Source: a bacterium (lineage in GTDB: Bacteria; Oederibacteriota; Muellerivitia; Muellerivitales; Muellerivitaceae). From it: a stretch of DNA of 43,435 nucleotides. How positions within the stretch are numbered: position 1 is the first letter of the stretch; every line of letters begins with the position of its first letter. The translations under genes and the position numbers were made by a program. The notes under the pieces are model-generated. The model had not been told where the DNA came from and made no database searches. It saw only the letters and a list, made by a program, of their open reading frames with translations. The DNA lies in contig DASZRK010000063.1 of the NCBI GenBank assembly GCA_035549195.1, positions 1 to 43,435 on the forward strand, written 5' to 3'. Positions 32,799-38,905 of this stretch are shown here, piece after piece.

Positions 32799-34508
32799 AT
32801 GCGCGACTGGAGCAAACCCGCTTTCACCTTGCTCCTGGGGATGGCCCTCTGTTTCTTCTGCCTCAACCTTTACCTTTCCAACCTGCCGGTCAATTACACC
32901 TATGACGGGATGGTCTTCGCCTCGAAGGTCGAGAGCGACCATTTCCCGCTTTGGGATTATTTCCATCCCCACCATCTCCTTTACACCTTCCTGGGCCGTC
33001 TTCTGTTCCTCTGGGGAAGGGCCCATGGGGCCGCTTGGGACGGCCTGGTCACCCTTCAGTTCTTCGATCTGACCACGGGCGTGCTGGGCGTCCTGTTGCT
33101 TTTCCACCTCCTGGTGCGGGAGACGGACGACCGGTTCGTCGCCGCCCTTTGCGCCACGGGGTTGGCCTGCACCCTCAGCTATTGGTATTTCTCCACCACG
33201 CCCGGTGTGCGGATCTTCGCCACGGTCACGCCCCTTTTGGCCTGGTATGTCCTGACCTGGCAGAAAAAGCTCCCGCCGTTCTTCGGCCTGGTGGTGGGTC
33301 TTTTCCATGCCCTGGCCGCCTTGGGTCATCAAACCAACCTTTTGCTCGTTCCGGCCTTCCTGGGCGGGTTCTGGTGCATCCCGGGCCGCACGGCGTGGGA
33401 AAAACTGCGCATGTGCCTTTATTATTCCGTCTCCCTCACCGCCGGGGTGCTTTCGGCCTATGGTTTCGTCGGACGTTATGTCTGTTACCGCAAGACCTAC
33501 GAGAGCTGGCTTTGGTGGGTCTTTTCCTATTTCCATGTGAAGGCCTGGGGCGGGCATCTGGAACAGGCCGGGGTGGACCGGGGGAAATTCGCCATGGTGC
33601 AGGCCTTTCTCGCCAAGGCCGTGCCCACGCAGGTCATGGTGGATCCGTTCACTTTCGAAGCGGCCAAGACCCTTTTCCAATACGCCCTTTGGTCCCTCCT
33701 GGCGGTGCTCCTTTTGAGGTCCTTCCACTATTGGAAGGGGCACCGTCAGGCCCTTTGGATGTCCCTGCTTTGGCTCGTCGCCTATGTCCCTTTCTTCATC
33801 TGGTGGGAACCTTGGAACATCGAATTCTGGGTTTCCTCCACCGTCCCTTGCTGGGTCCTGATCGGCCTGGTGGCTTCGGACCTGTCGAGCCTCTGGTCCC
33901 AGCCCGTGGTCCATTGGGCCAACCGCCTTTTTTTCAGCGGACTTTGGGCCGGATTGGTGGTTTTGCTTTTTTTCTACAATTTTCACGGCAATCTGGTGAG
34001 GTCGGCCACCAATGCCTATGGCCACAAGGCCCTCTTGGGGGCCTTGGACTGGAAGGTGCGCAAGGACGACCTGCTGGTCCTGGACGGCATCAACACCATT
34101 CCTTTCTATATCGACCGTTACTACAAGCGGGATTACCTGAGCCTGCACGCTTTCCTGAAGCGCTACGAACCCAAACCCGCCGACAAGAAGGCGACCCCGG
34201 TCCCGACGTCCCAGGCGACGCCAACGCCTCCGCCCGATCCGTGGAAGGATCTTTCCGATCTTTTCGCGGGCGTTTGGAAGCGCCACCGGAAGGTTTGGGT
34301 CTTGACCGAGGCGGTGGATGAAAAGGATGATTGGCGGATCCGGTTGGAGAACCTGATGAAGCTTCCGCCGGGGAAGTTGACCGAATTCTTCAAAAGCTAC
34401 GAATTGAGGCCCGTGACCTACCAGAAGAAGATCTATTTCTACGAGGTGGTCCAGCCCAGTCCAACCCCCTCGCCCAAGCCGTCCCCCAAGGCCCTCCATG
34501 CGCCCTAG
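32799..34508 (+). CDS. Polytopic GT-C-like membrane protein, possible protein/polymer O-glycosyltransferase
   Basis: A 569-residue inner-membrane protein with about ten hydrophobic helices in residues 8-400 and a 165-residue soluble tail. The first outside loop has an acidic residue (NYTYDGMVF) followed by FHPHHLLYTFLGRLLFLWGR. This resembles the Asp ... HPPG-x-P-L-x-x-L-L-G-R pattern of DUF2723/TMEM260-type GT-C transferases, so a lipid-linked sugar transferase is a fair inference. The tail contains two Pro/Thr-rich stretches (TPVPTSQATPTPPPDP and SPTPSPKPSP). AAAGGAT precedes the ATG. It overlaps the next gene by 11 bases, which points to a joint function. Donor and acceptor are unknown. 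Confidence 0.65.
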   Translation: MRDWSKPAFTLLLGMALCFFCLNLYLSNLPVNYTYDGMVFASKVESDHFPLWDYFHPHHLLYTFLGRLLFLWGRAHGAAWDGLVTLQFFDLTTGVLGVLLLFHLLVRETDDRFVAALCATGLACTLSYWYFSTTPGVRIFATVTPLLAWYVLTWQKKLPPFFGLVVGLFHALAALGHQTNLLLVPAFLGGFWCIPGRTAWEKLRMCLYYSVSLTAGVLSAYGFVGRYVCYRKTYESWLWWVFSYFHVKAWGGHLEQAGVDRGKFAMVQAFLAKAVPTQVMVDPFTFEAAKTLFQYALWSLLAVLLLRSFHYWKGHRQALWMSLLWLVAYVPFFIWWEPWNIEFWVSSTVPCWVLIGLVASDLSSLWSQPVVHWANRLFFSGLWAGLVVLLFFYNFHGNLVRSATNAYGHKALLGALDWKVRKDDLLVLDGINTIPFYIDRYYKRDYLSLHAFLKRYEPKPADKKATPVPTSQATPTPPPDPWKDLSDLFAGVWKRHRKVWVLTEAVDEKDDWRIRLENLMKLPPGKLTEFFKSYELRPVTYQKKIYFYEVVQPSPTPSPKPSPKALHAP

Positions 34509-37500
34509 GACCCTCCTGCCCCTGGTTCTCCTCTTTTTGTTCTTCCGGATCCCGGCCGATGGGGAAAAAACCCCGGTGGTCGATGTGGTCCCCCTGGAAG
34601 TCTCCCCGCAAGTGATCAAGGCCCAGCCCACCCCGACCCGTTCCGAGGCGCACAAGGACCTGCCACTGGAGGAGATGGGCCCGGAAATGCTCCTGGACCA
34701 TCCCTGGTTGAACGACCTTTATTCCTGGGGAGAGACCTTCGATCTGGACCATCAGGAGGTCAAGGCCGCCAATACGGGCGCCTATTGCATCGGCAATGGG
34801 AGGTCCTTCGCGCTGGTCGGCCTCTCCAGTCCCCTTTGGAGCTGGTCCAACCTCTATGGAGCCTCCTACCAGGAACCCGACCTGGGGGCCATGAAGATGG
34901 ACGTGACAAGGGCGGGGAACGATTTTTGGTGCCCGAAACAGGAGATCGGATGGGTCAAACGCTCCGGGGTGGTGCGGGTGCGCGCGGTGGGGAAGGGCAT
35001 CCTAGTGGAGACCTATGACTTCGCCCCCGCCCGGGCCAACGAAAGCGACAGTTGGGACAATCCGCCGGTCCTGGTCCGGCTGGTCCATATCCAGAACAAC
35101 GGGGACCAGGACGAGAACGACCTGGACATCCAACTCAAGATCCAATCGGCTTGGAACGTCAAGATCCATCCTGAACAGGAGGGGCATGAACTGGTCTGGG
35201 ACCAGAAGGCCCAAAGGGCCAAGAAGCGGACCATCTGGCGGATGGGGTCCTTCAACCCGAAACGGGTACGGATCTGGGACGGGAACCTTCATTACGGCAT
35301 CGAGTCCCTGAAGCCGGGGCAAGAGACTTGGACCGGTTTTTATCTCCTCTCGGCCGGGGGGCGGACCGAGGCCCACAACCTGGCCGAGGATGTCCGCAAA
35401 AAGGGAGCTGTGCGTCTTTTGGACGAGACCCGGGATTATTTCACCCGATGGTTCGACCAGGGAACGACCTTTTCCGGGGACGCCAAGATCGCCGATCTTT
35501 TCGAGATCGAATCCATGATCTTCAAGTCCCAACAGTCCTATTCGGGCGGCTTCTCACCCCTGATCGGCTATTCCTACACTTGGATCCGGGACAACAACGG
35601 GCCCATCCGGTGGTTCCTCAAGACGGGACATCCGAAAGAGGCCAAGGGCGCCATGGATTTCTTCTATGGCGTCGGTTCCACCATGGGATCCCTTCCCAAC
35701 AGCATCCGGGTGGATTATCCCCTGGACTACCGCAAGAAGGACCTTTCCAACATCCACGTGGAACACGCCGAAACGCCCAACTGGATCGTACTCCAGCACT
35801 GGTGGTATTACCTCGCGACCGGCGACCTGGAGTTGATCCGGGCCCGGTGGAATTACCTGGTGCGTTGCATCAAAGGGCAGGTCAACGAGGACGACCAATA
35901 TTTCTTCCACCGGGACGAGACCTATCTTTGGTGCCTGGAGTCCCGCTGCTTCGACGAGGTGCCTTTCCCGAACTACTATCTTTCCACCTATGCTTTCTCC
36001 ACGGATTCCAGCTTCGACCTGGTCTCGGCCGCGGACCACCTGGCTTACCTGGGAAAATACCTGGAAATGGACCGGGAGGTGGAGGACCTGAAGAAATTGT
36101 CCCAAGCGGTCCGTGACAAGGCCGAAAGTACCTATTGGGACGAGAAGCACGGTTATTGGGCGCCCGCCCAGTCCCTCCTGGGCCCCCTCTACAACGCCCC
36201 TTTTGCCAATATCCTGGTCAATCCGCTTTGGTGCGGTTATGCCCGCGGGGAACTGGACCCCCTGGGGCCTACGCCCTTGAGCACTGGGCGGGCGGTCTCG
36301 GCCCTTTGGAATGCCTATCCTTGGCTGGGCCGTCCCGACGGTTTTTGGAAGACCACCCCAACGGTCGATTTCTTCGTGGGCATGAACCCGGGTCAGCTTC
36401 TCTACGATTTCTGCGAGGCGCACCTGGCCTGGGCGGGCAAGGCCTATCAAGCCGTCCTCAAGGCCGCTACGCCTTCCGGTGAGTTCGCCGAAATGTATGA
36501 CGGCGATTATAGACCCTGGAATCCGCCGGTCTGGGGGGTGGGGACCAGCGGCCGGGTGCGTCCCTGGGAAGGGGGCCTTAACACCGAATCGGTCCTGGAA
36601 TACTTGACGGGGTTCGAACCGGACGCCGGGAACAACCGCCTGGTCCTTTCCCCCCACCTGCCCGAGGACATGAAGGAACTGGACGCCCAGCGTTTTTGGG
36701 TCGGACCGGTCCGCGTGTCCCTGGCCCTGAAAAGGACCTCCTCCCGCGAGTGGACGGCGACGTTGCACTTGGATCGCGGTGAGCAGATCGGAGTGGTGAT
36801 GGACCTTTGGGCCGACCACCGGCGCTTCCGATCGGTCGAGGCCGCGCCGAAGGTCGAATGGCGGAAATCCTTGGAGATGACCGAGGGAAGGGAAGCGCTT
36901 TGCGAAACGACCCTGGAGGCGGACAAGGATCTTGTCTTCACCATCCAGGAAGGCGGGACCCTGAGCGACAGCGAGATCGATCCTCCGGGCCCCCAGACCT
37001 TCAAGCCGGATCCCTATGAGACGGAATCGGGGGATGTCCTGCTCCTGACGACCCCCACAGGCGTCTTCCAGCAGCATAAACATGCCCGTCCAGAGCGGTT
37101 CTTGGAGACCGGGCGGGAAGAGCTGCGGCTCATGAAAGGGGTCACCAAGTCCCTGTCCTTCCTGGACCTGGACCTTCCGATCGCGCCCGAGGACATCGTC
37201 AATGGACTGTTGGACGCCAAGGGCGCCAACAAAGTGAAACTGGCGGTCCTGGGGCGGGGCGCCTTTTCGTCGGGCAAGCACGATTTCAAGCCCGAGATCT
37301 ATTGGACCCACCCCAAGCTTTGGCAGGGGATCAAGAAGTTCCTCGAGCAGGGCGGTGTGCTCTTCCTGGGCCCTTCTTATCCGGACCGGGAGGTCCTCCC
37401 CCAATGGGTGGTCAACCTCACGGGCGGTTGGGAGGAAGGGCTTTCGAAGGATAAGGCCCTGGCCATCAACGCCAATAAGGTCTCGTCCATCCAGACGAAG

Positions 37501-38208
37501 TTGGACGAACTGCCGGTCAACGACAAGGGGGCCGAGGAGGCCCATGGCGTGAGCGTGACCGGGGAAACTTTCGAGGACCAGCAGACCCTTCCCGACCTCC
37601 AGGACGAGAAGAAGATGATCCAGGAACACGGCCGCGGGTTTTCGGGCTACTACCAGTTCACCATGCGGACCGTTCCCGGCAAGCGCCACCGTCTTTGGTT
37701 GCGGGTCAACACGGCCCATAACATCAAGGGGATGGCCTTGCAGGTCCAACAAGGGGACGGGTGGACCCAGGTGGGGGTGCGGACCCAGAACCTGGGCGAG
37801 ACCCGGCACTTCGAGTCGCTCTATTTCGATGTTCCTGACCGTTTCATCATTTCCGAGCGGACGACCTTCCGCTTGGTCTCCAAGAACGGGGAGGAAGTGA
37901 ACGCCTACCGTCTCTGGATGTACGCGGTGGAGGGCGGCCGCAATGAATCGCTCCCGGAGATGCTCGGTTTCGGCGCCAACCAGGACATCGGATCGGTGGT
38001 CCACGGCTTGATCCCCAAGGGGAAGGATTGGAAGGTCCCGGTCGTCCTGGCCCAGCACGGGGACCAGGGGGCGGTCATCCTGCAAAAGGTGGGCAATGGG
38101 TTCCTGATCCGAAGCGAGTTGTCCATGGAGGATTCGGTCCCCATCTTCAAGGCCCTTCTGTCCCCGGGATTGGTCGAGGACATGCGGTCGGCTTGGGACA
38201 AGTTCTAG
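34498..38208 (+). CDS. Large exported six-hairpin-glycosidase-like protein with C-terminal accessory domains
   Basis: A 1236-residue protein. A signal peptide (1-22, ending RIPADG) and Pro/Thr-rich spacer precede an N-terminal beta-sandwich (about 70-325). An (alpha/alpha)6-barrel region (about 335-725) follows, with YTWIRDNNGPIRWFLKTG, HRDETYLWCLE and SGEFAEMYDGDYRPWN. These resemble glucoamylase/GH63/GH94-like active-site loops. E663 in SGEF and D365 in WIRD are candidate catalytic or substrate residues. Residues about 845-985 look like a class I amidotransferase/ThuA-type fold (VLFLGPSYPDRE). Residues 1025-1150 look like a carbohydrate-binding beta-sandwich. Glycan cleavage or trimming outside the cytoplasm is inferred; the exact GH family is not recognised. 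Confidence 0.7.
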   Translation: MRPRTLLPLVLLFLFFRIPADGEKTPVVDVVPLEVSPQVIKAQPTPTRSEAHKDLPLEEMGPEMLLDHPWLNDLYSWGETFDLDHQEVKAANTGAYCIGNGRSFALVGLSSPLWSWSNLYGASYQEPDLGAMKMDVTRAGNDFWCPKQEIGWVKRSGVVRVRAVGKGILVETYDFAPARANESDSWDNPPVLVRLVHIQNNGDQDENDLDIQLKIQSAWNVKIHPEQEGHELVWDQKAQRAKKRTIWRMGSFNPKRVRIWDGNLHYGIESLKPGQETWTGFYLLSAGGRTEAHNLAEDVRKKGAVRLLDETRDYFTRWFDQGTTFSGDAKIADLFEIESMIFKSQQSYSGGFSPLIGYSYTWIRDNNGPIRWFLKTGHPKEAKGAMDFFYGVGSTMGSLPNSIRVDYPLDYRKKDLSNIHVEHAETPNWIVLQHWWYYLATGDLELIRARWNYLVRCIKGQVNEDDQYFFHRDETYLWCLESRCFDEVPFPNYYLSTYAFSTDSSFDLVSAADHLAYLGKYLEMDREVEDLKKLSQAVRDKAESTYWDEKHGYWAPAQSLLGPLYNAPFANILVNPLWCGYARGELDPLGPTPLSTGRAVSALWNAYPWLGRPDGFWKTTPTVDFFVGMNPGQLLYDFCEAHLAWAGKAYQAVLKAATPSGEFAEMYDGDYRPWNPPVWGVGTSGRVRPWEGGLNTESVLEYLTGFEPDAGNNRLVLSPHLPEDMKELDAQRFWVGPVRVSLALKRTSSREWTATLHLDRGEQIGVVMDLWADHRRFRSVEAAPKVEWRKSLEMTEGREALCETTLEADKDLVFTIQEGGTLSDSEIDPPGPQTFKPDPYETESGDVLLLTTPTGVFQQHKHARPERFLETGREELRLMKGVTKSLSFLDLDLPIAPEDIVNGLLDAKGANKVKLAVLGRGAFSSGKHDFKPEIYWTHPKLWQGIKKFLEQGGVLFLGPSYPDREVLPQWVVNLTGGWEEGLSKDKALAINANKVSSIQTKLDELPVNDKGAEEAHGVSVTGETFEDQQTLPDLQDEKKMIQEHGRGFSGYYQFTMRTVPGKRHRLWLRVNTAHNIKGMALQVQQGDGWTQVGVRTQNLGETRHFESLYFDVPDRFIISERTTFRLVSKNGEEVNAYRLWMYAVEGGRNESLPEMLGFGANQDIGSVVHGLIPKGKDWKVPVVLAQHGDQGAVILQKVGNGFLIRSELSMEDSVPIFKALLSPGLVEDMRSAWDKF

Positions 38209-38287
38209 GCCGGGGGAAGGGCTCAGTTTTTTTTCCCTGGACGTTTAATTTTGTTAGAGTGATTCAGCCTATTTGAAAAGGATGGCC

Positions 38288-38905
38288 ATGCGCGCTCCGG
38301 TGCTCAACCTGTTCAAGTTGAAGAAAAAAAACCATGAGAATGCCCCCGGCAAGGGGCGTGAGGGACATGGAGAGGACCTGTTGCGCGCCATGCCGTCCTG
38401 GGGGATGGTCCTGGTGGCCTATGGGTTGGCGCTTGGTTTTTGCTGGGTGAGCCATCAATTCTTCCTCTGGTTCCCGCCTTACTTGCGGGAGGTCTTCAAG
38501 AACCTGCGGGGGCTTCCGGTGGAATGGGCCGACCTGGGACTCGATTGGGCTGAGCGAGGACTGGCTTGGATCGCTTGGGGCGCGGCGGTTTACCACCAAC
38601 TTTGGCAATTGGGGACCCGTTACCGGCTGACCGCCCATGACATCCAGGTGGAACATTGGTTCCCTTTCCGCCAACTCATCTCGATCCCCTATGGGGCGGT
38701 GCGGCGGCTGGGTTTCACCCAAGGGCCCGTGGGGATGATCTTTCAGTTCGGACATGTGGAGCTCGATACAGGGAGTCCCCAAGGCCCCGTCCTGTTGGTC
38801 AATTGCCCCAGGCCCCGTCAATTCATCCAAGCCCTGCAACCGAAGGTCGAGTCCATCCTCCAGCCCCACCTGGGGCCGCATCGGCGGGCGGGGGATACGG
38901 CCTGA
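38288..38905 (+). CDS. Membrane protein with bacterial PH-like (DUF304-type) domain
   Basis: A 205-residue protein. A charged N terminus (rich in Lys, Gly and Glu) is followed by one or two hydrophobic segments (about 38-62 and 88-105). The C-terminal domain (about 112-190) has the bPH2 pattern: YRLTAHDIQVEHW, ISIPYGAVRRLGF and VLLVNCPRPRQFIQAL. Function unknown. I chose ATG at 38288, six bases after AAAAGGA. An in-frame TTG at 38273 and ATG at 38282 are possible. It follows the glycosidase-like gene after a 79-base gap with a run of eight T but no convincing terminator. Confidence 0.6.
   Translation: MRAPVLNLFKLKKKNHENAPGKGREGHGEDLLRAMPSWGMVLVAYGLALGFCWVSHQFFLWFPPYLREVFKNLRGLPVEWADLGLDWAERGLAWIAWGAAVYHQLWQLGTRYRLTAHDIQVEHWFPFRQLISIPYGAVRRLGFTQGPVGMIFQFGHVELDTGSPQGPVLLVNCPRPRQFIQALQPKVESILQPHLGPHRRAGDTA

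Follow-up and report, generated by a model that had tools for sequence, protein, structure and literature searches.

The window, the whole stretch of 43,435 nucleotides analysed here, comes from a genome of the candidate division FCPU426 that measures 3.2 Mb, in which it forms contig 63. It carries two consecutive genes, gene 1 (32799-34508, 569 codons) and gene 2 (34498-38208, 1236 codons), which overlap by 11 bases, ATGCGCCCTAG, at 34498-34508; the coordinates and lengths are as the first-pass annotation had claimed. As both frames are intact and are conserved in nine other genomes, the gene pair is not a chance occurrence. Neither window protein has any match in Pfam or NCBIfam, and single-protein sequence searches of the PDB with each returned nothing beyond chance. 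The gene 1-gene 2 system is real and conserved, and is unnamed in the libraries searched. The features of the locus, including a third gene, are as follows.

32799..34508, forward strand: gene 1, predicted GT-C-like polytopic membrane glycosyltransferase, 569 aa (AlphaFold and Foldseek; PMT_2 in the family, TMEM260-like in relatives)
32904..32906, forward strand: D36, acidic residue of the first loop and candidate catalytic Asp, shared by the whole family (10 of 10) and by the aligned relatives of other phyla
32964..32984, forward strand: HPHHLLY motif, gene 1 residues 56-62, with H56 and H59 kept in nearly all aligned relatives
33801..33830, forward strand: WWEPWNIEFW motif, gene 1 residues 335-344, family signature by conservation
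34498..38208, forward strand: gene 2, predicted exported six-hairpin glycoside hydrolase, 1236 aa (GH94/GH95/GH65 fold match; profile matches to chitobiose phosphorylase and GH15 glucoamylase)
34498..34563, forward strand: signal-peptide-like N-terminus of gene 2, MRPRTLLPLVLLFLFFRIPADG, read from the sequence by eye
35482..36609, forward strand: predicted (alpha/alpha)6 barrel, gene 2 residues ~329-704 (predicted helices and Foldseek)
35569..35592, forward strand: Y358...W362-x-R364-D365 of gene 2, equivalent to TtGA Tyr337...Arg343-Asp344 (1LF6 profile alignment), invariant in 19 sequences
35914..35922, forward strand: D473-E474-T475 of gene 2, with E474, on the alpha5-alpha6 loop, as candidate general acid (invariant in 19 sequences; position after helix alpha5 as in clan GH-L)
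36490..36492, forward strand: E665, on the loop that precedes helix alpha12, candidate general base (invariant in 19 sequences; position)
36568..36570, forward strand: E691 in RPWEGG, alternative candidate general base (invariant in 19 sequences)
37033..38205, forward strand: C-terminal alpha/beta domain of gene 2, weakly ThuA-like, with an inserted beta-sandwich (predicted secondary structure; weak 4JQS profile match)
38273..38905, forward strand: third gene, encoding a membrane protein that has a bacterial PH domain (Pfam bPH_2, 6.9e-7), likely start ATG at 38282 or 38288

The AlphaFold model of gene 1 was built from eight sequences (pLDDT 65, pTM 0.54). In Foldseek it matches STT3/PglB with E values of 2.5e-5 to 7e-4, and further matches are to ALG3, AftA, ALG9, PIGU, Pmt1-Pmt2, and Emb proteins. 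All high-probability matches are GT-C proteins or close structural kin, while non-GT-C folds have a probability below 0.4 among the matches listed. The structure prediction and fold search proposed as a check on the first-pass annotation thus recovered the GT-C core, and gene 1 is predicted to have a GT-C fold. The model is of middling confidence, and prediction is poor for the first loop, where the active site is supposed to lie. Both elements that the annotation had placed in this loop, an Asp (D36) and HPHHLLYTFLGR (residues 56-67), are present, and a conserved acidic residue at this position fits the GT-C type, suggesting a catalytic role for D36.

The proposed kinship to TMEM260 is supported, and extends to PMT. 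Six of the 10 family members match PMT_2 (PF13231) at E ≤ 1, the best at 1e-6, with the window protein among those lacking a match, and the distant gene 1 relatives L101 and L104, from other phyla, pass the cut-off of the TMEM260-like model (PF11028). The window protein itself has no match to the latter at E ≤ 1, and for this reason gene 1 is not filed in the TMEM260-like family but regarded only as kin of it. Like TMEM260-like and PMT_2 GT-C enzymes, gene 1 is polytopic, with a predicted GT-C fold and a first-loop Asp, whereas its family has HPHHLLY and WWEPxNIEFW motifs of its own. In alignment, WWEPxNxEFW is invariant in 10 of 10 family members and recurs in other phyla. Some genomes outside the phylum have several copies of the family, at least three in G289 and two in tandem in G011.

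The gene 2 model covers residues 56-1236 at middling confidence (pLDDT 69, pTM 0.65) and consists of a beta-sandwich followed by an (alpha/alpha)6 barrel. Its fold matches GH94, GH95, and GH65 enzymes in Foldseek with E values of 6e-18 to 1e-12; cellobiose phosphorylase is matched at 5.8e-18, and GH95 fucosidases, the GH65 enzyme PGGHG, and further (alpha/alpha)6 enzymes are also recovered. No family-level match to GH65, GH15, GH94, or any other family is found in Pfam or NCBIfam, and PDB matches are weak and at the profile level only. The N-terminus, judged by eye, together with the model, bears out the earlier description of an exported protein with a six-hairpin barrel and added C-terminal domains. 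A similar N-terminus, with a positive start and a hydrophobic stretch, is seen in the L029, L030, and L036 homologues.

An alignment of 19 gene 2 sequences, reaching beyond the phylum, has few invariant residues, among them Y358, W362, R364, D365, D473-E474-T475, E665, R688, W690, and E691. Profile comparison with the GH15 glucoamylase TtGA equates D365 with Asp344 and Y358 with Tyr337. In TtGA, the nucleophilic water is kept in place with the help of Asp344 from helix alpha2, the general base forms a bond with Tyr337, and in clan GH-L generally the acid lies on the alpha5-alpha6 loop and the base on the alpha11-alpha12 loop (PMC8626586). E474 and E665/E691 sit on the matching loops of the gene 2 model, although poor prediction of one barrel helix makes the helix numbering approximate; assigned by position, these glutamates are the candidate general acid and base. 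Gene 2 is thus predicted to be a six-hairpin glycosidase with a clan GH-L-like inverting active-site layout.

With clan GH-L enzymes (GH65 FjGH65A and PGGHG; GH15 TtGA), gene 2 shares the beta-sandwich and (alpha/alpha)6 barrel, the helix-alpha2 Tyr and Asp, and the acid and base loops, but at 1236 aa it has extra C-terminal domains that are absent there. The best fold and profile matches are phosphorylases of family GH94 and the part of cyclic beta-1,2-glucan synthase that belongs to GH94. In inverting phosphorylases, phosphate replaces the general base (PMC8626586), whereas gene 2 has two invariant base-loop glutamates and is predicted to be exported, both of which disfavour a phosphorylase despite the GH94 fold. 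Gene 2 is probably an exported inverting glycosidase that acts on an alpha-linked glucose-like sugar.

The C-terminal alpha/beta and beta-sandwich part of gene 2 has no named relatives in profile searches beyond a weak hint of a ThuA-like domain (4JQS, E 0.27), and its conservation is limited to the paired homologues plus a small number of distant ones. Two distant glycosidases outside the paired clade (L051:6699-11102 and L094:6080-9961) also have a portion of the post-catalytic C-terminal domain. A 688-aa protein of genome G014 (L121:5291-7354), with no Pfam match, has the C-terminal beta-sandwich without the glycosidase.

We surveyed 45 genomes of the phylum, in which named relatives of the window genome are assigned to FCPU426 and, at a greater distance, to Candidatus Firestonebacteria. 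Strong matches to gene 1 and to gene 2 occur in an identical set of 10 genomes (Fisher p 3e-10, uncorrected for shared ancestry), and the glycosyltransferase (GT) and glycoside hydrolase (GH) genes are adjacent in all 10. Adjacency in G030 is traced via a contig break, as the GT gene and the start of the GH gene lie at one contig end and the GH remainder at the start of another contig. The neighbourhood survey that had been suggested as a check therefore finds the pairing conserved. G005, which is congeneric with G001 and 94% complete, lacks gene 1, gene 2, and the bPH_2 gene. A contig titled Proteobacteria (L045, JAJPJW010000098.1) carries the FCPU426-family module and gene order, and is probably mislabelled. 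Six relatives have 4-base ATGA or GTGA overlaps at the GT/GH junction, which, with the 11 bases in the window, implies translational coupling. In pairwise comparisons, sequence identity declines for GT and GH together (r = 0.97), reaching 21-29% across families. All paired GHs fall into a single clade (support 100/99), indicating one origin of the paired glycosidase.

The surroundings of the pair vary. In most FCPU426 genomes it lies inside a shikimate operon, while in Firestonebacteria it is beside rhamnose catabolism genes, indicating that no single operon accounts for the pairing. That the two genes stay adjacent and diverge in step amid changing surroundings argues that selection holds the pair together. 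Conserved adjacency by itself is no proof of a shared substrate; from its persistence despite drift to ~20-30% identity, we infer that GT and GH act on the same surface glycan.

The bPH_2 gene, which was absent from the first description of the locus, is a third conserved gene. It lies 3' of the glycosidase gene in 8 of the 10 pair-bearing genomes; of the other two, G030 lacks it and in G018 the contig ends. No full-length bPH_2 homologue was found elsewhere in the phylum. The conserved unit thus comprises three genes, encoding the GT, the GH, and the bPH_2 membrane protein. The nucleotide cyclase noted upstream does lie close in the window, ending 35 bases before gene 1, but neither spacing nor adjacency is conserved: an MsrB gene separates the cyclase from gene 1 in G001, G006, and G007, and the G004 cyclase is not beside the pair. 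We therefore reject the cyclase as a member of the module. An MsrB-like gene with an export-like N-terminus is found just 5' of the GT gene at L036, L035, L038, L039, and L041, an arrangement not seen in the window. On the other side, genes for a rhamnulokinase-like kinase and L-rhamnose isomerase lie directly 3' of the module at two Firestonebacteria loci (L029:12681-15618 and L031:3315-6283). The genomes in which RhaB and RhaA follow the module, G010 and G030, belong to the same genus, and RhaA was not found in FCPU426-family genomes, leaving a weak case for a rhamnose-specific role. In the genomes examined, the neighbours of the pair include no recognisable gene for a polyprenyl-phosphate sugar synthase, flippase, polymerase, or polymer export.

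Outside the phylum, no GT gene is found near relatives of the GH core (nine loci in seven genomes, plus L051), and no GH gene near GT relatives (thirteen loci, some on short contigs). The gene 1 family, with its HPHHLxY and WWEPxNIEFW motifs, is spread there without a glycosidase partner (L101-L107 and L110-L117). Conservation of the pairing thus holds inside the phylum and fails as a general rule of either family, and we reject a general GT/GH pairing across bacteria. As each family occurs without the other outside the phylum, the pairing arose once, as a lineage-specific combination drawn from two wider families, and the two activities are not mutually required in general.

Overall, the observation made in the first-pass annotation, an overlapping membrane transferase and exported glycosidase, is confirmed, and its interpretation as a system that builds and trims a glycan is partly supported. 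We lean, if only slightly, towards reading the three genes as an extracytoplasmic glycan build-and-trim module. The GT-C enzyme of gene 1 would transfer a sugar from a polyprenyl-phosphate donor to an acceptor, either glycan or protein, at the outer face of the inner membrane. The exported inverting glycosidase of gene 2, which would be exo-acting, would then cut a terminal alpha-linked glucose-like hexose, probably from the same glycan, as a step of maturation or removal, and the bPH_2 protein would probably assist at the membrane. The working principle has an analogue in the endoplasmic reticulum (ER), where a glycan is transferred and then trimmed. A bacterial transfer-then-trim system proper, in which a clan GH-L-like glycosidase matures or edits the product of a GT-C enzyme with a dedicated PH-domain membrane partner, is an elaboration that we regard as unlikely. 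Literature searches found nothing on DUF2723 with a glycosyltransferase, nor on GT-C with a six-hairpin enzyme.

Two specific forms of the build-and-trim module can be considered. One is decoration of polysaccharide side chains in the three-component style of Gtr/GT136, with the glycosidase either governing how long the chains become or taking the decoration off again, the role that PelA plays for Pel. This we hold to be a tentative, on balance doubtful, possibility. Loci for exopolysaccharides such as those of PelA and PslG likewise combine a synthesis gene and a hydrolase for the same glycan, although the synthases there differ in type and the hydrolases belong to other families than those here, and their polymer export genes have no counterpart found beside gene 1 and gene 2. 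GT-C enzymes do add periplasmic side-chain sugars from lipid-linked donors (PMC11127046), and hydrolases are common in exopolysaccharide loci (PMC9075953, PMC9894940), whereas the lack of a donor synthase, flippase, polymerase, or export gene beside the pair speaks against this form. The other form, protein O-glycosylation with trimming, appears rather unlikely. Here a TMEM260/PMT-like gene 1 would modify proteins and gene 2 would strip terminal sugars from the glycoproteins, by analogy with ER glucosidase trimming or PGGHG on collagen. The PMT_2 and TMEM260-like matches in the gene 1 family and its relatives are consistent with this, as human TMEM260 initiates protein O-mannosylation (PMC11292533), and the folds closest to gene 2 include that of PGGHG, a GH65 glucosidase that acts on a protein glycan. 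However, the same models also cover GT-C enzymes for lipids and polysaccharides, and the window protein matches neither.

The remaining explanations do without a common glycan. Gene 2 could be a catabolic exported glycosidase for nutrient scavenging, with gene 1 linked just for expression or no transferase at all; free-standing gene 2 relatives in other phyla, one of them beside a second glycosidase, and the position of the module 5' of rhamnulokinase and L-rhamnose isomerase in two Firestonebacteria are in keeping with such a role. As the FCPU426 module sits in a biosynthetic operon, RhaA was not found in those genomes, and strict pairing with a GT-C enzyme over deep divergence would be unexpected, we judge scavenging to be quite improbable. 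The adjacency might instead be inherited from one ancestral arrangement without a functional link, all pairs being of one clade in one phylum. Neighbours outside the trio change between groups while the pair stays, identity falls to 21-29% between families, and overlapping or near-abutting GT/GH junctions are retained, making mere inheritance very improbable.

The three-gene unit contributes two enzyme families not yet classified, for one of which the predicted active site is clear, in a pair known from uncultured soil and groundwater bacteria and forming one transcription unit. In these organisms, translational coupling may link the synthesis of one glycan to its cleavage. If true, transfer-then-trim would be a counterpart, evolved independently in candidate phyla, of the ER process in which a GT-C enzyme makes the transfer and six-hairpin glucosidases do the trimming. 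Next to nothing is known about surface glycans in FCPU426, Firestonebacteria, and similar uncultured phyla, and the conserved transferase-glycosidase-PH unit offers a testable entry point to them.
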